This document shows positions 29,770 through 40,299 of a stretch of DNA of 64,000 nt, one piece after another. The stretch's first letter is position 1, and the number at the start of each line of letters is the position of its first letter. The notes beneath the pieces are model-generated. The model was given only the letters and a program-made list of their open reading frames with translations, did no database searches and was not told the DNA's origin. The translations under genes and the position numbers were made by a program. Origin of the DNA: Geomonas silvestris (GTDB taxonomy: Bacteria > Desulfobacterota > Desulfuromonadia > Geobacterales > Geobacteraceae); NCBI RefSeq assembly GCF_014193515.1, contig NZ_BLXX01000010.1, forward strand, positions 124,001-188,000, in the 5' to 3' direction.

Positions 29770-29833
29770 GGAATAGGGGTTGACCTCCCCTGCGGCACGG
29801 GGTACATTCAACCGGTTCGAGCGAGGGGGAGCC

Positions 29834-30988
29834 GTGTCGCGCAAGACAGCACTCATCAGTTGCACCGATCTGGGCGGGTACAGCTACGGGGAGGCGCATC
29901 CCTTCAAGGTACAGCGCTTTCGCCTGGCGCACGACCTGATGGGGGCCTACGGGCTCTTGCAGCTCCCGGGGATGGAGCTGCGCCGGCCCCGCCCGGTGAC
30001 TCACCAGGAACTCCTTACCGGTCACAGCGCGGAATACCTGGAGCGCCTGCGCGAGTTCAGCGCCGCGAGCGAGCCGCGGGCCGATTTCCGTTTCGGCTTG
30101 GGCGACCTGGAGAACCCGGTGTTCCCCGGCGTCTACGACTGGGCCTGCCTGGGGGTCTCGGGGACCCTGGAGGCGGCCCGGCTGGTGAGTGAAGAGGGGT
30201 TCGCCGCCGCCTTCAACCCGCTGGGGGGGTGGCACCACGCCCAGAAAAGCCGCGCCTCGGGCTTTTCCTACCTAAACGACGCGGTGGTCGCCATCAACTA
30301 CCTGGTGGCTCAGGGGAAGCGGGTGGTCTACCTGGACCTCGACGCCCACCACGGCGACGGGGTGCAAAACGCCTTCTACGACACCGACCGGGTGCTCACC
30401 ATCTCGCTGCACGAAAGCGGCAGGTACTTCTTCCCGGGGACCGGGTTCGAGGACGAGACCGGCACCGGGGCGGGGGAGGGGTACTGCGTGAACGTCCCGC
30501 TGCAGGCCCACACCGACGACGCACTCTTCATGAAGGCCTTCGACGAGGTCGCCTTCCCGCTCATCGCGGCCTACGATCCGGACCTGCTCGTTACCCAGTT
30601 GGGGGCCGACACCTTCCGCACCGACCCCCTGACCCGGCTCGAGGTCACCACCCACGCCTACGCCTACATCATGAAGAAGCTGAGGGCCCTCGCCATCCCC
30701 TGGGTCGCCGTGGGGGGCGGGGGGTACGACCTCATGAACGTGGCACGCGCCTGGACCCTCGCCTGGGCCATCATGAACGACCGCGAGATTTCGCCCAGGC
30801 TCCCCCAGTCCTTCCTGAAGTTAAGCGGAGCCCTGGGCTTTCCGCACCGCATGCTCCTGGACGCCATGCACTGGGCCCAGGAGGACGACCGCAACGTGGC
30901 GCTCGACGCCGTGCAAAAGAGCATCGCCCTGGTACGGGCCCGGGTCTTCCCTGTACTGATCGGTCCCTATGGCAGCGACCGGCGCTGA
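29834..30988 (+). CDS. Histone-deacetylase-family protein (AcuC-like)
   Basis: This is a 384-residue zinc-dependent class I-type deacetylase. The catalytic tract is visible: GGWHHAQ (paired histidines), GFSYLNDAVVAI, DLDAHHGDGVQ with the Asp-His zinc ligands, and TQLGAD with the second Asp. A glycine-rich loop GGGGYD follows near residue 300. In other bacteria AcuC deacetylates acetyl-CoA synthetase. GTG 29834 follows GGGGGAG. The gene runs divergently from amt and overlaps the next gene by 20 bases, implying joint function. Confidence 0.88.
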   Translation: MSRKTALISCTDLGGYSYGEAHPFKVQRFRLAHDLMGAYGLLQLPGMELRRPRPVTHQELLTGHSAEYLERLREFSAASEPRADFRFGLGDLENPVFPGVYDWACLGVSGTLEAARLVSEEGFAAAFNPLGGWHHAQKSRASGFSYLNDAVVAINYLVAQGKRVVYLDLDAHHGDGVQNAFYDTDRVLTISLHESGRYFFPGTGFEDETGTGAGEGYCVNVPLQAHTDDALFMKAFDEVAFPLIAAYDPDLLVTQLGADTFRTDPLTRLEVTTHAYAYIMKKLRALAIPWVAVGGGGYDLMNVARAWTLAWAIMNDREISPRLPQSFLKLSGALGFPHRMLLDAMHWAQEDDRNVALDAVQKSIALVRARVFPVLIGPYGSDRR

Positions 30989-33412: not shown

Positions 33413-33452
33413 ACCGGGTCGGGTGTTTCAGCCAACCCTAAGGAAGACACGC

Positions 33453-33887
33453 ATGTCGTACCAACCCGAAAGCCGCCCCTGGGGCCTCTCAGCCCTTTCG
33501 GCGGCTTATTTCCTGTTCCTCATCCTCACCATGTCGAGTTACGGTTACCCCTTCCCGCTCTGGGGGAGGTTTTACACCGGGTCCGCCGCCCAGTGGCTGG
33601 TCTTTGCCGACAGCATGATCTCGCTCTACCTGTGGCTCGGCATCCTGAAACGGCAGCAGCTCACCGTCTGGCTCCTCATCGGCTACAACCTCTTCGACAT
33701 CCTGAACGCCTGCGTGAACCTGGCCCGCATTCCCGCCTCCGAGTACGCCCGTCTGGCAGAATCCGCCATCCCCGAAGACGACCTGCGCCTGAACACCCTG
33801 GTCGCCGCGGTGGTGCTCATGCTGCTCAACCTCTACGTGTTCCGCAACCGGCGCCACTTTTACAACCGCTCGCTGTACCTCTTCTAA
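33453..33887 (+). CDS. Small multi-pass membrane protein
   Basis: This 144-residue protein has about four predicted hydrophobic helices (ALSAAYFLFLILTMSSYGYP, WLVFADSMISLYLWLGIL, LTVWLLIGYNLFDILNACV and LVAAVVLMLLNLYVF) and a basic/aromatic tail. No family is recognised. ATG 33453 follows AAGGAAG at normal spacing. It lies 41 bp after the CoA-binding gene and may be co-transcribed. Confidence 0.7.
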   Translation: MSYQPESRPWGLSALSAAYFLFLILTMSSYGYPFPLWGRFYTGSAAQWLVFADSMISLYLWLGILKRQQLTVWLLIGYNLFDILNACVNLARIPASEYARLAESAIPEDDLRLNTLVAAVVLMLLNLYVFRNRRHFYNRSLYLF

Positions 33888-34376
33888 GCTTAAGCGCTGC
33901 AGCACTGCGCTGTCTCCTTTCAGTTTCCAGGGCTCGTGCCGATTAGTCCTTTACCACCCTTCGACTCAAAGGGTACTTGGCCCAGCTACCAAGGAGAGTG
34001 CTGCGGTTCATCTTCGCTGCTGCGACAGCTGGTTTTGCCGTCCCCGCCGCGCCGAAATGCGGCCGGGATGCATGGGGGCGCAGGCGTATGAAGAGTACCC
34101 GAAAGGGCGGAACACAGTCGCTCGTCTGCTTAGTTCACGGGGCGATTCGAGTAGGTAGTGTAGGACATTGTCCGTGTTATTGATCCAGATTTAGAAAATA
34201 TCAGCCAAACCGCACCCTGGTTAGTGTCAACCAAGAATCTTCTCTTGCCAGGTGACTGTAATCTCTGCTAGTATGTGCGCCGTTTAAGGCTTTCTGGAAC
34301 CCGCGCTAGCTACCGGCCCGGTTCGAGCTTACAGCACCTTTTCCGACACCAACCATTGCGCCGACGAGGAACTATA
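33888..34376. other. Long intergenic region before the conduit operon
   Basis: This is a 489-bp gap. A 68-codon open frame at 33977-34183 has no suitable start site and no family resemblance. I looked for riboswitch cores (c-di-GMP, cobalamin, SAM) and tRNA arms and found none that hold. The region around 34180-34280 is AT-rich and carries a good -35/-10 pair. The rest is unexplained and long enough for a leader RNA or a small RNA. Confidence 0.45.
34245..34274 (+). promoter_or_regulatory. Candidate sigma-70 promoter of the conduit operon
   Basis: TTGCCA (34245-34250) and TAGTAT (34269-34274) are separated by 18 bp. The leader to the GTG start would be about 95 nt. Confidence 0.5.
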
Positions 34377-35210
34377 GTGTTTGCCAAGCTCAAACATGGT
34401 CTGACCGGCTCCTTCTTTCATGCCGACAACGCGGATCGCCCGATCAACCTGGAGGATACCCGCGGCGTCGGTATCCGCATCGAAGCGCTCAACAAGTACT
34501 TCGACGGGCACCACGTCCTGAAGGACATCAACCTGGAGATCAAATCCGGCGAGACCTTCAGCATCATCGGCCCCTCCGGCACCGGCAAGAGCGTCCTTTT
34601 AAAGCACATCGTCAAGCTGGAGTCCCCCGATTCCGGCGAGATCTACATCGACGACATCCCGATCTTCAACGAGGCGCGCGGCCAAGAGCAGCGCGACTAC
34701 CGCTACTCGATGGTGTTCCAGTCCTCGGCGCTCTTCAACTCGCTCACCGTGGGGGAGAACGTGGGGCTGTGGCTCAGGGAAAAGCGGGTCTGCAAGGAAC
34801 AGAGGATCCGGGAGATCATCCGCGAGAAGCTCGAGATGGTGGGGCTGGTGGGCAAGGAACAGCTGCGCACCTCGGAACTCTCCGGCGGGATGAAAAAACG
34901 CGTGGCGATCGCCCGCTCGCTCGCCATGAACCCGGACCTGATCCTCTACGACGAGCCGACCGCGGAGCTCGACCCGGTCACCACCGACGAGCTCGCCAAC
35001 ACGATCCTGAAGCTCAAGGAGAGCACCAAGAACACCACGGTGATCGTGACCCACGACCTCAACTTCGCGCTCTACATCTCGGACCGGATCGCCATGATGC
35101 ACGGCGGCACCATCGTCGAGGTGGGGACGCCGCGCGAGATCAAGAAGAGCGAGAACCCCATCGTGCGCGGCTTCATCTACACCACCACCAAGGGGATCAG
35201 GGGAGACTAA
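34377..35210 (+). CDS. ABC transporter ATP-binding protein, MlaF/Ttg2A-like
   Basis: This 277-residue ATPase has Walker A GPSGTGKS near residue 62, Q-loop FQSSALF, signature LSGGMKKRVAIARSL and Walker B LILYDEPTAELDP. The TGKSVLLKHI and LSGGMKKR versions are typical of the Mla/Mce phospholipid-trafficking group. No MlaE permease, MlaD or MlaC gene is adjacent. The GTG start at 34377 is chosen because GAGGA lies 6 bases upstream; longer in-frame starts lack a site. Only one base separates its stop from the cytochrome start, so translation is coupled. Confidence 0.85.
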   Translation: MFAKLKHGLTGSFFHADNADRPINLEDTRGVGIRIEALNKYFDGHHVLKDINLEIKSGETFSIIGPSGTGKSVLLKHIVKLESPDSGEIYIDDIPIFNEARGQEQRDYRYSMVFQSSALFNSLTVGENVGLWLREKRVCKEQRIREIIREKLEMVGLVGKEQLRTSELSGGMKKRVAIARSLAMNPDLILYDEPTAELDPVTTDELANTILKLKESTKNTTVIVTHDLNFALYISDRIAMMHGGTIVEVGTPREIKKSENPIVRGFIYTTTKGIRGD

Positions 35211-35211
35211 G

Positions 35212-36213
35212 ATGGCACTGCCGGGCACCGTGCGCCAGAAACGAGCCTTCCTTGTAGCGCTGAGCTTTGCGCTTTTGCTGGTCTCGTGCGCCTCGCTCAA
35301 GCAGTCAAAGCCCATCCTCCCGGTGCGCGAGTACGAGAGGATGATCGTGGGGCGCCTGGACGCCGAGTACGTCGGCACCAACAACTGCGTCTCCAAGTGC
35401 CACGCCCACGATAGAATCACCAGCGATTTCAGCCATTCGGTGCACGGCGAGCAGATCAAGCCCGAGACCGGGCTCCCCCTGGTGAACTGCGAATCCTGCC
35501 ACGGTCCGGGAAGCCTCGCCATCGCCCACCTGGACGACGACCGCGAGAAGAACACCCAGCTGCAAAAGAAGTGCGACACCTCGAAGTTCCTGGACATCAT
35601 GCACCTCCCCCCCCAGGCCCAGTCCCTCATCTGCCTCAAGTGCCACTCCGCAGCATCGATCCCCGCCCTGGCCCACTGGAACGCCTCGGCCCACGCGGTG
35701 AACGACGTGAGCTGCTTTGACTGCCACAAGCTCCACAAAGGTCCCCAGCAGAAGGTGAGCCGCGAGGAGATGGCCGAGATGTGCTTCGGCTGCCACCCTG
35801 AGGTGCGTGCCGAGAACGCGCTCTACTCGCACCACCCGCTGCGCGAGAAGAAGATGGTCTGCGTGGACTGTCACGAGGTGCACGGCTCCACCCAGGAGAA
35901 GCTTTTGAAGGGGAACACCCCCAAGGAGACCTGCACCCGCTGCCACATGGAGAAACAGGGTCCCTTCGCCTATGAGCACGGCGATGTCACCGAGAACTGC
36001 TCCACCTGCCACACCCCGCACGGCTCGGTGAACAACCACCTGTTGAACGCGGCGCTCCCCTTTCTCTGCCTGCAGTGCCACACCGGGCACCTGATCAGCA
36101 ACGCCAACGTAAAGCAGCTCTTCACCAACCGCTGCACGGACTGCCACTCGCAGATCCACGGCAGCGATACCCCCTCCCAAGGCGTCACCGGAAGGGGCAC
36201 CCTGCGTCAGTAA
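35212..36213 (+). CDS. DmsE/MtrA-family decahaem c-type cytochrome (lipoprotein)
   Basis: This is a 333-residue multihaem cytochrome. A signal peptide ends in a lipobox-like LLVSC, so it may be lipid-anchored. Nine CXXCH motifs are present (CESCH, CLKCH, CFDCH, CFGCH, CVDCH, CTRCH, CSTCH, CLQCH, CTDCH), and a tenth site near residue 60 reads CVSKCH, a CX3CH variant. Ten haems and this length fit DmsE/MtrA/PioA proteins, which plug an outer-membrane barrel to carry electrons between periplasm and cell surface. The barrel gene follows. ATG 35212 is preceded by GGGGAG. It starts two bases after the ATPase stop codon. Confidence 0.9.
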   Translation: MALPGTVRQKRAFLVALSFALLLVSCASLKQSKPILPVREYERMIVGRLDAEYVGTNNCVSKCHAHDRITSDFSHSVHGEQIKPETGLPLVNCESCHGPGSLAIAHLDDDREKNTQLQKKCDTSKFLDIMHLPPQAQSLICLKCHSAASIPALAHWNASAHAVNDVSCFDCHKLHKGPQQKVSREEMAEMCFGCHPEVRAENALYSHHPLREKKMVCVDCHEVHGSTQEKLLKGNTPKETCTRCHMEKQGPFAYEHGDVTENCSTCHTPHGSVNNHLLNAALPFLCLQCHTGHLISNANVKQLFTNRCTDCHSQIHGSDTPSQGVTGRGTLRQ

Positions 36214-36237
36214 CGGCAAAGGAGCCTTAAGGACGAG

Positions 36238-38358
36238 ATGAAAACCCTGCATCCTGCATACGGCGCCCCCTCACTGCTGCTGCTTTTGCTGCTCAGTGCC
36301 GGCAACGCCCAGGCCGAGGCCGAGCCGCGCGACGCCGCGCCCGAGGCCGAGCGGGTGGCCCTCGCCGAGGAGGGGAAGGTCTACGGCGGCGACGAGCGGG
36401 TGGTGGAGACCCTGGAGCAAAAGGGGGGGCAGATCGGCTACAGCTTCGTCGACGGGCGCGGCTACGGCGGGCGGGCGGCTCCCTACGGCTTTTTGCACTC
36501 CTCGCGCTCGGGGGGGCTCTTCTACCGGACCCTGGAGAAAGACGGCAACTTCGAGCTGGAAGGGAACTTCCTAAACGAGAACGACTACCACGGCGACCTC
36601 CTCATCGACTACAAGGGGGACTACCGGCTGCACCTGCGCACCGAGGCGCTCTTTCACAACCTGGACCGCGAGCTGTTGTTCTCCCAGTCCTTCACCTCGG
36701 CACGGGTGGATCCCCCCTTGCTCGGCCAGCCGGCCAGCTACACCTCGTTCCAAGATCCCGCCACCGACTACGGCATCACGGTATCCCAGGACATCGCCGA
36801 GTTCCGCTACCGGCTGCACAACTTCCCGCTGCACGTAAACCTCGGCTACTGGCGCCTGGTGCGCGAGGGGACCGTGCAGCAGCGCTACGCCGACACCGGT
36901 TTCGAGGGAGACACCAACCGGATCATCGCGGAGGCGCGCCAGATCCGCCAGGTGACCCAGGAAGGGCGCCTCGGGGTGGATGCGCATCTTGGCTGGGTCG
37001 ACCTCATCTACGACTTCAAGGTCCGGACCTTCGAGGACCAGCCGGCCATCCCCACTGCGAACTACCTGGCCCGCAACACCGGCTTCGGGACCGTCGCGGC
37101 CCCCGAAAGCGTCGGAGGGGTCCGGCAGCACAACGAAAACCCGGACAGTATCTTCTTCTCCAACACCGTGAAGCTCCACACCTCGCTCACCGGCGGCATC
37201 GTCGGGAGCGCTTCCTACAGCATCGACCAGCGCGAGAACCTCTCCCGGCTCAGCGACACCGTGGGGATCAAGCACGCCCAGGTGAACCTGCAAAACGCCG
37301 CCGGCGACTTCGTCTACACCCCGTGCAAGGAGTTCTCGCTGGCGGTCAAGTACCGCCGCCAGGAGCTCGAGCACGACAACCGCGACCCGCTGGTCAGCTC
37401 CAACTTCGTCGACCCGCAACAGAGCGTGAAACCGCCGGTGGACAGCTCGAAGGACGTGGTGCTGGTCAACCTCGCCTTCAAGCCGATGGCGGGGCTCACC
37501 CTCAATGCCGAGTACCGCGGCGAGATGGTGCACCGCGACCACGTCTCCGACCTCCCCGGCGCCAGCACCTGGGCCCTGCCGGCCAATTCGGCGACCCAGA
37601 AGGGGTCCCTCGCGCTGCTCTACCACCCGATCAAGGGGGTGCGGCTCACGGCGAAGTACGCCTATGCGACCACCGACCACCCCGCCTACGGCAACTCCTA
37701 CGAACAGCGTCACGAAGGGGAGCTTTTGGCTACCTACACCTCGGGCCGTTGGGGGGCGACTGCCAACGTCCGGGCGCGCCGCGAGTGGAACGACAGCATC
37801 GAGCACTTCATCGTGAACTCGCCCCCCTTCAGCGATCCGGTGGGGTGGAGCGCCTCGAGCCCCCTGTCGCGCACCCGCGCGGCCGAGGACGCGAACCTGG
37901 GGGTCTGGGTCAATCCCGTGAAGCGCCTGACCCTTTCGGCGAACTACGCCTGGCTCAGCAATTCGGTGGACCAGGCGGTGCTCTTCACCGGTGTCGGTGC
38001 GGGGAGCGAGGCTGCCAGCAACTACCTAAGCCGCGCCCACGTCTACGGGATCACCGCGAACCTGGCGGCCACCGAGGAACTGGACCTGGCGCTTGCCCTG
38101 CAGCAGATCCGCTCGGAGTCGGCGTTCACGCCGCAACTGGTGACCTTTGGCAGCGCAGACACCTCCGGCATCCGGGAGATCACCCGGCAGGACACCGTGA
38201 TAAGCTCCGCCGCCTGGCGCGGCGAGTACCGTTTCACCAAGCAGTTTTCCGGCAAGCTCGAGTACACCCTGCAGGATTACCACGAGAGAAACAAGGCCTA
38301 TAGCGACCAAAACGGCACCGTGCACGCCGTGGTCGCCTACCTTACGGCCAGGTGGTGA
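36238..38358 (+). CDS. MtrB/PioB-family outer-membrane beta-barrel
   Basis: This 706-residue protein has a cleavable signal peptide (LLLLLLLSAGNAQA, cut about residue 26). It continues as a long series of amphipathic strands ending in an aromatic residue (VVAYLTARW), as expected of an outer-membrane barrel. Length, the early GQIGYSFVDGRGYG strand and the alternating aromatic pattern match the MtrB/PioB decahaem-associated family. I do not see the N-terminal CXXC of Shewanella MtrB. With the preceding cytochrome it would form a transmembrane electron conduit. No extracellular MtrC/OmcA-type cytochrome is encoded nearby. AAGGACGAG precedes the ATG. Confidence 0.87.
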   Translation: MKTLHPAYGAPSLLLLLLLSAGNAQAEAEPRDAAPEAERVALAEEGKVYGGDERVVETLEQKGGQIGYSFVDGRGYGGRAAPYGFLHSSRSGGLFYRTLEKDGNFELEGNFLNENDYHGDLLIDYKGDYRLHLRTEALFHNLDRELLFSQSFTSARVDPPLLGQPASYTSFQDPATDYGITVSQDIAEFRYRLHNFPLHVNLGYWRLVREGTVQQRYADTGFEGDTNRIIAEARQIRQVTQEGRLGVDAHLGWVDLIYDFKVRTFEDQPAIPTANYLARNTGFGTVAAPESVGGVRQHNENPDSIFFSNTVKLHTSLTGGIVGSASYSIDQRENLSRLSDTVGIKHAQVNLQNAAGDFVYTPCKEFSLAVKYRRQELEHDNRDPLVSSNFVDPQQSVKPPVDSSKDVVLVNLAFKPMAGLTLNAEYRGEMVHRDHVSDLPGASTWALPANSATQKGSLALLYHPIKGVRLTAKYAYATTDHPAYGNSYEQRHEGELLATYTSGRWGATANVRARREWNDSIEHFIVNSPPFSDPVGWSASSPLSRTRAAEDANLGVWVNPVKRLTLSANYAWLSNSVDQAVLFTGVGAGSEAASNYLSRAHVYGITANLAATEELDLALALQQIRSESAFTPQLVTFGSADTSGIREITRQDTVISSAAWRGEYRFTKQFSGKLEYTLQDYHERNKAYSDQNGTVHAVVAYLTARW

Positions 38359-38372
38359 CAAAGAGGTAGCCC

Positions 38373-39335
38373 CTGAAACTGATCCGTACTATACTGCTGC
38401 TGTTGGTCATGACAGCCCTGTTTCCGGCGGCGGATTCCCGTGCGGCCGGCAAGCTCGTGGCTGCCATATTGACCTGTGACATCCCGCGCTACCGGGAGGC
38501 GCATCGCGCTTTTGTCAAGGCACTGGTACAGAAAGGGTACGATCAGAGCAACGTCGAAGTCATCACCCAGACCCCCAACCCCGACCCCATCTCCTGGGCC
38601 AACAGCATCCGGAAATTCAACGCCATCGGCGCGGACCTGATCGTCACCTACGGGGCGCCGGCCACCATGACCGCCCTGCGCGAGGCAGGCGACATCCCCG
38701 TGGTGTTTGCCGACGTCTACGGACCGGTGGAAACCGGCGTGGCGCGCAGCCTCTCCGGGACCGGCCACAACATGGCGGGGGTGAGCAGCAAGGTGCCGCT
38801 GGTCACCCTGGTGAAGACGGCACTCGAGGTCAAGCCGATCAAGGTGCTCGGGGTGGTCTACACGGGGCGCGAGGAAGGGTCGATGGTGCAGCTCAAGGAG
38901 ATGCGCAAGATCGGCGCCCAGTACGGGGTGATCCTGGTGGAGGTGAACCTGGCCGGGACCAGCGGCATCGACGCCGCGCTCGCCACCATGTTCAACGCGC
39001 GGGTCGAGGGGATCTACGTCACCGAGTGCACTGCCGGGTCGCGGGGCTTCGAGAAGATCGTGCACCGCGCCGGGGAGTCGAAGATCCCGGTCTTCTCCCA
39101 GATGCCGGGAGCGGCCCAAAAGGGTGCCGTGCTCTCCTTGGAGGCCGATCCGGCCGAGCAGGGGCAGGTGGCGGCCGACTACGCCGCGCGGATCCTCGGG
39201 GGCAAGAAGGCCGGCAGCCTGCCCGTGGCCACGCCCAAGAAGGTCGAGCTGGTGGTCAACATGAAGGTGGCCAGGGCGTTGGACCTGCACGTGCCGTTCC
39301 CGGTGCTTTCGGCAGCGACCCGAGTGCTTAAGTAA
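38373..39335 (+). CDS. ABC-type substrate-binding protein (PF04392-like), CTG start
   Basis: This 320-residue periplasmic binding protein of the TrpX-like group shows LVAAILTCDIPRYREAHRAF, the repeated Rossmann lobes (LIVTYGAPATMTALREA; VLGVVYTGREEG) and GSLPVATPKK at the C-terminus. A normal signal peptide (KLIRTILLLLVMTALFP, cut after SRAA) is only complete if translation starts at CTG 38373, which has GAGG 6 bases upstream; the frame closes at a TAG two codons before, and the next start-like codon (TTG 38403) would remove the charged n-region. No permease gene is adjacent. It could present a ligand to the ATPase complex or to a sensor. The start is inferred. Confidence 0.8.
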   Translation: MKLIRTILLLLVMTALFPAADSRAAGKLVAAILTCDIPRYREAHRAFVKALVQKGYDQSNVEVITQTPNPDPISWANSIRKFNAIGADLIVTYGAPATMTALREAGDIPVVFADVYGPVETGVARSLSGTGHNMAGVSSKVPLVTLVKTALEVKPIKVLGVVYTGREEGSMVQLKEMRKIGAQYGVILVEVNLAGTSGIDAALATMFNARVEGIYVTECTAGSRGFEKIVHRAGESKIPVFSQMPGAAQKGAVLSLEADPAEQGQVAADYAARILGGKKAGSLPVATPKKVELVVNMKVARALDLHVPFPVLSAATRVLK

Positions 39336-39351
39336 CCGGTTTGAGGTGGTA

Positions 39352-39738
39352 ATGAGAAAAATTTTGATCGTGGACGACGATGCTCCGTTCCTGGATGCCC
39401 TGAGGGAGCAGATCCGTTCGCTCTACCCGCTGCTTGCGGTGGTGACCTGTACCGATCCCGTCCAGGCCCTGGCCGTGCTCAAGCAGGAGCCGGTGGACCT
39501 GTTGCTGGTCGATCTGGAGATGCCGGTCATGGACGGCACCAAGATCTTCAACTTCGCGGTGTCGCTTGGGATGGACAAGAACCGGATCGTCATCCTCTCC
39601 GGGCGGGACTCCGACTACCTGCACGAGCAGTTCCCGATGGGGACCTGCCTCGCCGTGCTCAACAAGTACGAAGCCAAGCAGAAGGCGGTCCTGGACATGA
39701 TCTTCAGCTCGATGCAGCGCAAGGCGGCAGGCGGCTAG
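39352..39738 (+). CDS. Single-domain response regulator
   Basis: This 128-residue CheY-like receiver has all core residues: acidic pair in VDDDAPF, phospho-acceptor in LLVDLEMPVMDG (near 53), Ser/Thr in ILSGRDS and the lysine in LNKYE. There is no output domain. ATG 39352 is preferred over GTG 39346 because GAGGTGG then has usable spacing. It closes the conduit operon 16 bp after the binding protein and may signal to a kinase elsewhere; none is adjacent. Confidence 0.88.
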   Translation: MRKILIVDDDAPFLDALREQIRSLYPLLAVVTCTDPVQALAVLKQEPVDLLLVDLEMPVMDGTKIFNFAVSLGMDKNRIVILSGRDSDYLHEQFPMGTCLAVLNKYEAKQKAVLDMIFSSMQRKAAGG

Positions 39739-39812: not shown

Positions 39813-39841
39813 AAGCTCCCCGGTCTCCCGGGGGCTTTCAT
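39813..39841 (+). terminator. Possible terminator of the conduit operon
   Basis: AAGCTCCC faces GGGGGCTT (8 bp with one G-T pair) around a 9-base loop and is followed by TTTCATTT. The T-run is short, so efficiency is uncertain. Confidence 0.45.
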
Positions 39842-39909: not shown

Positions 39910-40299
39910 ATGGGAAAGATGATGCGCTTGACCTGCTACGAGCAGAAACACCTGAGGCCGGAGTGGCAGGAGAGCCTCTCGGGTATCGGGTTTGAGCTCT
40001 TCTTCGCCGAACTGGTGCAGGACCTAGCCGGTTTCGGGATCACCCTGGAGCGCGGGGACGGCTCGGGACAGGTGATCGAGGTGAAAAGTTACGCCGACCT
40101 CTTAAACGCCGTGCGCATCGCCTCTCCCTCGGACGGGATCGCCAACGTCTGTGTCGGGCACGTCATCGGCAAGAGTCCGCACCTTGACCCCCAGGAAGAC
40201 ATTAAGCGTGCCGTGAACCGGATCGCCTTCGCTCCGGAGACTGTCCCCCCCGACGACGAGAACCGCCGGACCTGCCACAACTGCGGCTGCGGCTGTTAG
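39910..40299 (+). CDS. Hypothetical protein with C-terminal Cys cluster
   Basis: I do not recognise this 129-residue protein. It is mainly mixed alpha/beta with an acidic middle (FELFFAELVQDLAGFGITLERGDGSGQ) and ends ENRRTCHNCGCGC, four cysteines and a histidine in eight residues, suited to a metal or Fe-S site. ATG 39910 has a good GGAGGAG site. It stands alone between the conduit operon and a leftward phosphodiesterase. A redox or metal role is possible but not shown. Confidence 0.65.
   Translation: MGKMMRLTCYEQKHLRPEWQESLSGIGFELFFAELVQDLAGFGITLERGDGSGQVIEVKSYADLLNAVRIASPSDGIANVCVGHVIGKSPHLDPQEDIKRAVNRIAFAPETVPPDDENRRTCHNCGCGC

Follow-up and report, generated by a model that had tools for sequence, protein, structure and literature searches.

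In the genome of Geomonas silvestris, an ATP-binding cassette (ABC) ATPase and a periplasmic binding protein are encoded, with no permease beside them, together with a multihaem cytochrome and an outer-membrane barrel, which raises the question of what transport genes of this kind do in a putative electron conduit. The genes lie at positions 34377–39738 of a 64,000-nucleotide stretch of contig NZ_BLXX01000010.1 (hereafter, the window), on contig C10 of the 5.1 Mb genome; the nearest named relative in the scan is Geomonas limicola, with 97% cytochrome identity. An earlier note on this DNA described five tightly packed genes on one strand, and all five are present in this arrangement. According to our analysis, it is highly probable that the conduit operon consists of two inherited pieces, namely a displaced mlaF gene and a cassette encoding the cytochrome, the barrel and the substrate-binding protein (CYT-BAR-SBP).

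The first gene (34377–35210, + strand, GTG start) encodes an ATPase of the PF00005 family (116.8 bits, cut-off 25). In the PDB sequence search, 7d06_B, 6z5u_K and 6ic4_I, titled "ABC transporter ATP-binding protein", occupied ranks 1, 2 and 4; we take these chains to belong to the Acinetobacter Mla system. Chains titled MlaF (7ch8_I, 6xbd_I) ranked lower, non-MCE ATPases were interspersed among the matches, and the motif ELSGGM was shared in the alignment. Family, Mla matches and gene context bear out the MlaF-like ATPase proposed previously.

A search for the missing parts of such a transporter detected a single MlaE match (PF02405) in the genome, with an MlaD match (PF02470) adjoining, on contig C12; contig C1 carries three more MlaD-domain matches, all within a single 581-aa frame. 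The C12 region contains two genes that are presumably leuC and leuD, an unnamed 527-aa gene, MlaE, MlaD and a carotenoid-type gene. No ATPase gene was found there, and the 62 ABC hits of the genome all map to other contigs. The absence of a permease is therefore correct for the five-gene unit and incorrect for the genome, where MlaE is encoded on another contig.

The distribution of these genes was compared in 117 Geobacterales genomes. A clear ortholog of the ATPase was found in 74 and an ortholog of the C12 MlaE in 72; with both present in 70 and neither in 41, the two agree in 111 of 117 genomes, and all six discordant genomes are 69–88% complete. Since some type of MlaE is present in 116 of the 117, only this particular ortholog is informative. 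For the ATPase and the cytochrome, agreement was noted in 90 genomes (both in 51, neither in 39, discordant 27). The ATPase occurs without a cytochrome ortholog in 23 of its 74 genomes, and the cytochrome without the ATPase in 4 of 55 (G021, G026, G053, G116), these four also being devoid of the C12-type MlaE. The figure of 55 refers to orthologs, strong matches being found in 59 of 117 genomes; G029, G045, G080 and G086 were dropped as paralogs (39–48% identity, E 3e-41 to 8e-55). The ATPase thus co-occurs with the distant MlaE better than with the cytochrome, and its description as an orphan recruited by the conduit does not hold. The earlier note had also named a finding that would contradict its proposal of a shared function, namely that the ATPase serves an mla locus unconnected with the cytochrome genes, and co-occurrence largely points to such an arrangement.

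Within the order, none of the 20 loci of the C12-type MlaE (L140, L201–L218, L220) has an adjoining ATPase gene. In L213, a 33%-identical ATPase is encoded about 3 kb from MlaE on the opposite strand, and L219, where an ATPase does adjoin, contains a different MlaE type. The leuCD genes stand beside the C12-type MlaE in 13 of the 20 loci (this genome and 12 of 19 others).

Outside the order the arrangement is different. In a class-wide survey of 277 genomes, the ATPase was found in 130, of which 50 lie outside Geobacterales, and all 50 of their loci were examined. MlaE, MlaF and MlaD are contiguous in that order in 50 of 50. The simplest reading is that the ATPase is MlaF and that the operon has been split in Geobacterales. 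The transporter to which this ATPase most likely belongs is of the MCE/Mla phospholipid type. If contiguous MlaEFD is the ancestral state, mlaF, which outside the order stands between mlaE and mlaD, would have been left with the conduit after the split, while in Geobacterales mlaE, usually with mlaD, is encoded elsewhere. Its product would assemble with the distant MlaE-MlaD and move phospholipid between the two membranes. The ATPase therefore probably powers a pump encoded elsewhere, despite its conserved linkage to the conduit. The position of the gene and the 1 bp gap to the cytochrome could instead indicate a conduit-specific factor without any transporter partner; against the closer co-occurrence with MlaE and the contiguous MlaEFD genes outside the order, this explanation is very improbable.

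The unnamed gene of the 527-aa type precedes MlaEFD in 49 of the 50 loci outside the order. In this genome (G000) it lies before MlaE at L140:8613-10193, and its product, which matches no Pfam family, is possibly an unrecognised Mla partner.

In 15 of the same 50 loci, the cytochrome gene comes immediately after MlaD; 14 of these continue with barrel and binding protein, the L302 locus being cut. The binding protein follows MlaD without a cytochrome in 17, and neither was detected after MlaD in 18, some of them at contig ends. The 17 loci could suggest that ATPase and binding protein form one importer that has lost its permease gene, as could the presence of both in one operon without a permease. 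This is extremely improbable, given that all 50 loci have the ATPase joined to MlaE and MlaD and that elsewhere the binding protein accompanies the cassette where the ATPase is missing. In the phylogenetic tree of the binding protein, 16 of the 17 fall in one clade of one family, which is consistent with one loss of cytochrome and barrel. In these 16 loci (L304, L305, L307, L312, L314, L315, L316, L325, L327, L328, L329, L333, L340, L342, L343 and L347) the binding protein directly follows MlaD, and cytochrome and barrel were not found there. Such MlaD-adjacent copies hint that the binding protein has a function independent of the conduit.

As for Geobacterales, gene order was compared in 60 chosen loci, 20 with the ATPase and without the cytochrome and 40 others. 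The five-gene order was found in 32 of the 35 copies containing both ATPase and cytochrome (the window and 34 of the 60 loci), so that it is not due to chance; the conservation that the earlier note had suggested checking is thus present. The three exceptions concern open reading frames (ORFs) that the gene picker did not report: the cytochrome in L118, where it is nevertheless present, the binding protein in L127 and the receiver in L131. By picked starts, gaps between MlaF and the cytochrome are mostly 0–128 bp, with two overlaps. One of the 32, L108, is otherwise intact and has the cytochrome split into two ORFs (L108:7786-8828).

The 23 genomes with the ATPase and without the cytochrome are represented by the 20 loci from 19 genomes (G097 has two copies) and by L123 and L124 from G100 and G108; G012 and G037 were left out. 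In 19 of the 20 loci, the receiver gene follows the ATPase gene; L085 has a 71-aa ORF between them, and the exception is L088, where the picker reported no receiver and the contig stops after a further 655 bp. In L098, which belongs to the same genus as the window, the cassette is absent and the gap between ATPase and receiver is 12 bp. The binding protein alone is left between the two in L123 and L124. Conversely, cassette and receiver are present without the ATPase in L119, L120 and L122, and the cytochrome alone was picked in L121. The receiver was rejected as a member of the cassette, as it stays beside mlaF where the cassette is gone.

Several observations weigh against the origin of the operon from a displaced mlaF and a separate cassette. 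The ATPase scores 165.7 bits with the NCBIfam model of E. coli-type MlaF (NF008809; cut-off 441), and other ATPase models score higher; for this reason it was not filed as an E. coli MlaF equivalog, and the name MlaF rests on context and structure-database matches. Presence and absence are shared by descent, and the 117 genomes are not independent events. Seven of the 20 MlaE loci (L201–L206, L216) have no leuCD in the stretch examined, and MlaD was undetected beside MlaE in six loci of one family (L201–L206). In addition, the receiver persists in loci without the binding protein.

The second gene (35212–36213, + strand, ATG start, 1 bp after the ATPase gene) encodes a putative lipoprotein cytochrome c of the DmsE/MtrA type, with a TIGR03508 score of 270.3 bits (cut-off 192.2). 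It contains nine CXXCH motifs and one CX3CH motif at residue 59. The "decahaem" of the earlier description thus counts the atypical motif; CX3-4CH sites are stated to bind haem in sections of PMC4245776. The lipobox residue Cys26 is invariant in 22 of 22 aligned cytochromes, window included. The cytochrome profile matches 6r2q_A, from an entry titled Mtr complex, a chain mislabelled in that profile search.

The third gene (36238–38358, + strand, 24 bp after the cytochrome gene) encodes a protein for which no Pfam family was detected at E 0.001, and a PDB search with a profile built from 20 relatives retrieved no MtrB chain with the E limit set at 10. Membership of MtrB_PioB is thus unsupported by sequence, and the assignment is kept by fold alone. 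The AlphaFold2 model, based on an alignment of 40 copies, has a pLDDT of 84.8 and a pTM of 0.76. According to Foldseek, the best match of this model is 6r2q_B of the Mtr complex (E 9.5e-21, TM 0.68/0.74), the next hit having E 1.6e-9. The predicted fold therefore agrees with the MtrB-type barrel proposed in the earlier note, while the sequence profile does not. A weak match was also obtained with GSU2204, a family model for a (seleno)protein containing CXXCH (101.2 bits, cut-off 350).

The TIGR03508 score, the haem motifs and the matches to 6r2q_A and 6r2q_B together support the MtrA/MtrB-type conduit recognised before. Judging by homology, the pair is expected to carry electrons through the outer membrane; the lipid-anchored cytochrome, presumably with ten haems, would sit in the MtrB-like barrel. 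No further cytochrome was detected among the five genes and the scanned neighbours, so that the unit contains no MtrC; a genome-wide search for MtrC was not made. According to sections of PMC4245776, MtrAB or MtoA/MtrB alone can work.

The fourth gene (38373–39335, + strand, 14 bp after the barrel gene) encodes a periplasmic binding protein of the TrpX-like PF04392 family (137.6 bits, cut-off 25.9). Its probable CTG start at 38373 was read from the sequence, whereas the ORF tool gives TTG 38403. The structure was modeled with a pLDDT of 95.4, and Foldseek matched it to 3lkv, 3lft and 6hni at query TM 0.84–0.88. According to parts of PMC6816091, the three fold-matching proteins bind Phe, Trp or Tyr and have two selectivity residues (Ala/Glu, Tyr/Gln). 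In the alignment, both positions map to Met244 and Pro260 here, a mapping inferred from the spacing of two residues, and on this ground the ligand is probably different from that of the three aromatic binders. The score with the TrpX equivalog model is 126 bits (cut-off 390). The TrpX-like assignment made previously is consequently right as to family and fold and does not extend to the TrpX score or the selectivity residues. The protein may detect a small periplasmic ligand, possibly aromatic.

The last gene (39352–39738, + strand, with ATG 39352 or GTG 39346 as the start) encodes a single-domain response-regulator receiver (PF00072, 50.2 bits), in agreement with the previous description. Residues D10, D12, D56, S85 and K107, numbered from GTG 39346, are present in 58 of 58 aligned copies, window included, and D11 in 57; we take them to be the canonical acid cluster, phospho-Asp, Ser/Thr and Lys sites. 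The receiver is not assignable to the conduit, since loci that have lost the cassette keep it beside mlaF.

The second piece of the operon was followed beyond the order. The cassette survey covered the best 80 of 129 relatives, which were divided by neighbourhood (for 16 of the 45, also by tree) into 45 Geobacterales loci and 35 others (L265, L267–L300) from Desulfuromonadales, Nitrospirota and vaguely named genomes. L265, L267, L278, L279 and L291 were taken as the same genomes as L317, L334, L339, L303 and L330 and counted once. In the 35 loci the cassette is mostly found without the ATPase, and no ATPase ortholog was detected in the flanks examined of the Nitrospirota and many Desulfuromonadales loci. 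The occurrence of CYT-BAR-SBP without the ATPase in Nitrospirota and other Desulfuromonadales indicates that the cassette is independent of the ATPase.

A gene for a methyl-accepting chemotaxis protein (MCP) adjoins the cassette in 20 of the 35 loci; in 14 it follows the binding protein, in 4 it comes behind the barrel, and in 2 it lies ahead of the cytochrome. Among the 14, four cases are weaker: L284 shows only an MCP start, L295 is not one ORF, L300 is a weak match and in L271 there is a gap of approximately 200 bp. In L289, L292, L296, L297 and L298, the binding-protein stop and the MCP start overlap by 4 bp. Pfam MCP and HAMP domains were found in six downstream ORFs, two of them in L297 and one each in L289, L268, L272 and L283, and the sensor domains were identified above the cut-off as sCache3 in L289 (Nitrospirota) and CHASE4 in L268 (Desulfuromonadales), those of L272, L283 and L297 remaining below it. 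Of the other 15 loci, five have MlaEFD upstream and no MCP, two have an adjacent phosphonate-type binding protein (L285, L294), four have no such neighbour (L270, L276, L280, L286) and in four the contig ends after or inside the cassette (L281, L282, L287, L288). The phosphonate-type binding protein occurs in two Nitrospirota loci instead, followed in one of them by a histidine kinase and a sigma-54 regulator. The genome of the window contains 48 matches to one such MCP, none of them beside the conduit, so that a chance MCP neighbour would be rare, although the loci are interrelated.

The cytochrome tree, midpoint-rooted for drawing only, placed the Nitrospirota sequences and L286 on one side. 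On the other side, Geobacterales (support 100/99) were sister to a clade of MlaEFD-linked and MCP-linked sequences, within which 10 MCP-linked sequences and five without an MCP in the stretch examined formed a clade (99/99), L271 standing apart. The MCP-linked loci belong to two phyla and differ in their sensor domains, which suggests that MCPs were recruited separately; an old MCP linkage with later losses is a possible alternative.

These neighbours lend genomic support to the sensing function guessed in the earlier note. Conduit-coupled chemosensing would mean that an acceptor-linked ligand loads the binding protein, which then signals either to an MCP, in other taxa, or, in Geobacterales, to the receiver by way of a histidine kinase. 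The nearest signalling gene is indeed the one-domain receiver here and often a chemoreceptor in other taxa, and the adjoining MCPs with their overlaps and differing sensor domains are in line with such a function. On the other hand, the receiver follows MlaF also where cassette and binding protein are gone, an MCP was found in only 6 of the 45 Geobacterales loci and more than 4 kb upstream of the cytochrome, and none of the 50 MlaEFD loci, 15 of which have the cytochrome, shows an MCP hit. We consider chemosensing of this kind possible, if only tentatively.

As for a possible lipid handling shared with the conduit, also guessed before, genomic support comes from the 15 outside loci, of 50, in which an entire MlaEFD operon immediately precedes the cytochrome. 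In a cooperation of this type, MlaEFD would supply or remove phospholipid where barrel and lipoprotein cytochrome insert, and selection would keep the genes adjacent, as the persistence of the MlaF-cytochrome adjacency in Geobacterales may indicate. However, each gene also occurs without the other in the Geobacterales genomes counted above, and the Nitrospirota flanks contain no ATPase ortholog. The same stretch moreover conserves genes with no plausible link (deacetylase-like and TPR), so that passive synteny may suffice. We regard the cooperation as unlikely; the MlaF-conduit adjacency could be functional or, since unrelated neighbours are conserved in this stretch, passive.

A broader proposal, which we consider doubtful, combines both ideas. 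CYT-BAR-SBP would be a self-contained sensing conduit, in which the electron-carrying pair and the periplasmic ligand sensor evolved together, and which reports acceptor availability to chemosensory proteins, with MCPs recruited separately (sCache-type in Nitrospirota, CHASE4-type in Desulfuromonadales) and the receiver replacing the MCP in Geobacterales. In Desulfuromonadia it would also be joined to a phospholipid pump conditioning the outer membrane around the barrel. For the operon made of a displaced mlaF and the cassette, gene identities, folds, split arrangement and co-occurrence were obtained directly by computation.

Upstream of the ATPase gene, a sigma-70-like promoter site (TTGCCA-18-TAGTAT, 34245–34274, + strand) was found, which is a weak match to the consensus only (2 found versus 1.0 expected in shuffles). 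In G. limicola both hexamers and the ATPase start region are identical, the spacer is slightly different and the DNA farther upstream is less alike; transcription starting at mlaF is consistent with this conservation. GTG 34275 is an unlikely start of the ATPase, given the 1–2 bp indels of the G. limicola copy in that stretch. A terminator-like hairpin lies 3' of the receiver gene (39817–39834, + strand), likewise weak (7 found versus 5.1 expected), and the unit between these sites may be co-transcribed. An Rfam scan of the window found no family above its gathering score; two matches upstream of the unit were far below theirs, and a riboswitch or small RNA before the ATPase was rejected on these scores. 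A repeat element in the same gap was also rejected, as window positions 33880–34380 have no second match in the genome.

The usual neighbourhood across the order consists of a deacetylase-like gene, a 271-aa gene, a TPR gene, a 154-aa gene, the ATPase, the cytochrome, barrel and binding protein, the receiver and a 129-aa gene, with members sometimes missing. The histone-deacetylase-family gene (PF00850, window 29780–30988) is a neighbour in many loci inside and outside the order. The conserved 154-aa protein (window 33423–33887), encoded upstream of mlaF, has several hydrophobic stretches, and the conserved 129-aa protein (window 39910–40299), encoded after the receiver, has a Cys-rich C-terminal tail, CHNCGCGC. 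On the same contig, at approximately 35200–48600 of C10, 75–89 kb upstream of the window start, there is a dense cluster of multihaem cytochrome matches.

With a likely partner identified, the puzzle of the ATPase is removed, and annotators should be aware that an ATPase encoded beside cytochromes may belong to a split operon. Several families of the class keep a phospholipid pump next to an outer-membrane electron barrel, which bears on whether conduits need special lipid handling. The repeated occurrence of conduit genes beside a chemoreceptor and a binding protein bears on how bacteria locate an insoluble electron acceptor.

Clustering of mtrAB in Desulfobacterota has already been reported in PMC12133095, in the main text of which, as far as covered, neither "chemotaxis" nor "ABC transporter" occurs. 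The MtrAB of Desulfobacterota and Esn signalling are thus known; within the partial coverage of the literature, no published mention was found of the linkage of this conduit to the ATPase or MlaEFD, the binding protein or an MCP.

The MtrAB, MtoAB and PioAB conduits, with a ten-haem cytochrome beside an MtrB-fold barrel, resemble the present pair of a ten-motif cytochrome and such a barrel, both of which match entry 6r2q. The present unit differs from them in its lipid-anchored cytochrome, one CX3CH motif, no MtrC in the unit and a PF04392 protein as the third gene. The Geobacter porin-cytochrome complex (Pcc; OmbB-OmaB-OmcB) likewise combines a porin with a periplasmic cytochrome across the outer membrane, as described in sections of PMC4245776, where its cytochromes are given as 8- and 12-haem and the Pcc and Mtr proteins are called unrelated. 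Here, in contrast, there are a single ten-motif cytochrome and a barrel with an MtrB fold, which does not place the unit among Pcc systems. The G. sulfurreducens proteins GSU2203 (OmcK) and GSU2204 are closer in that both NCBIfam models match (249.5 and 101.2 bits); both scores are under the cut-offs (325 and 350), so that the proteins are cousins and not the same family, and assignment of the cytochrome to the GSU2203 family was rejected.

The binding protein shares fold and PF04392 with the aromatic amino-acid binders TrpX, VC_1101 and CD0873, from which it differs by its TrpX score under the cut-off and by Met244 and Pro260 at the selectivity positions. With the MlaFEDB/MCE transporters, the similarity lies in an MlaF-type ATPase, MlaE and MlaD, present in the genome as a set and outside the order as an operon, whereas Geobacterales have the ATPase gene alongside the conduit, or what is left of it, and MlaE at another site. 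Finally, EsnABCD of G. sulfurreducens provides the MCP-type signalling needed for electrode growth; according to parts of PMC5585712, EsnA has no putative periplasmic domain, and esnA and esnBC belong to different gene clusters. In the case of the conduit described here, by contrast, MCPs with predicted sensor domains directly abut the conduit genes in other taxa.

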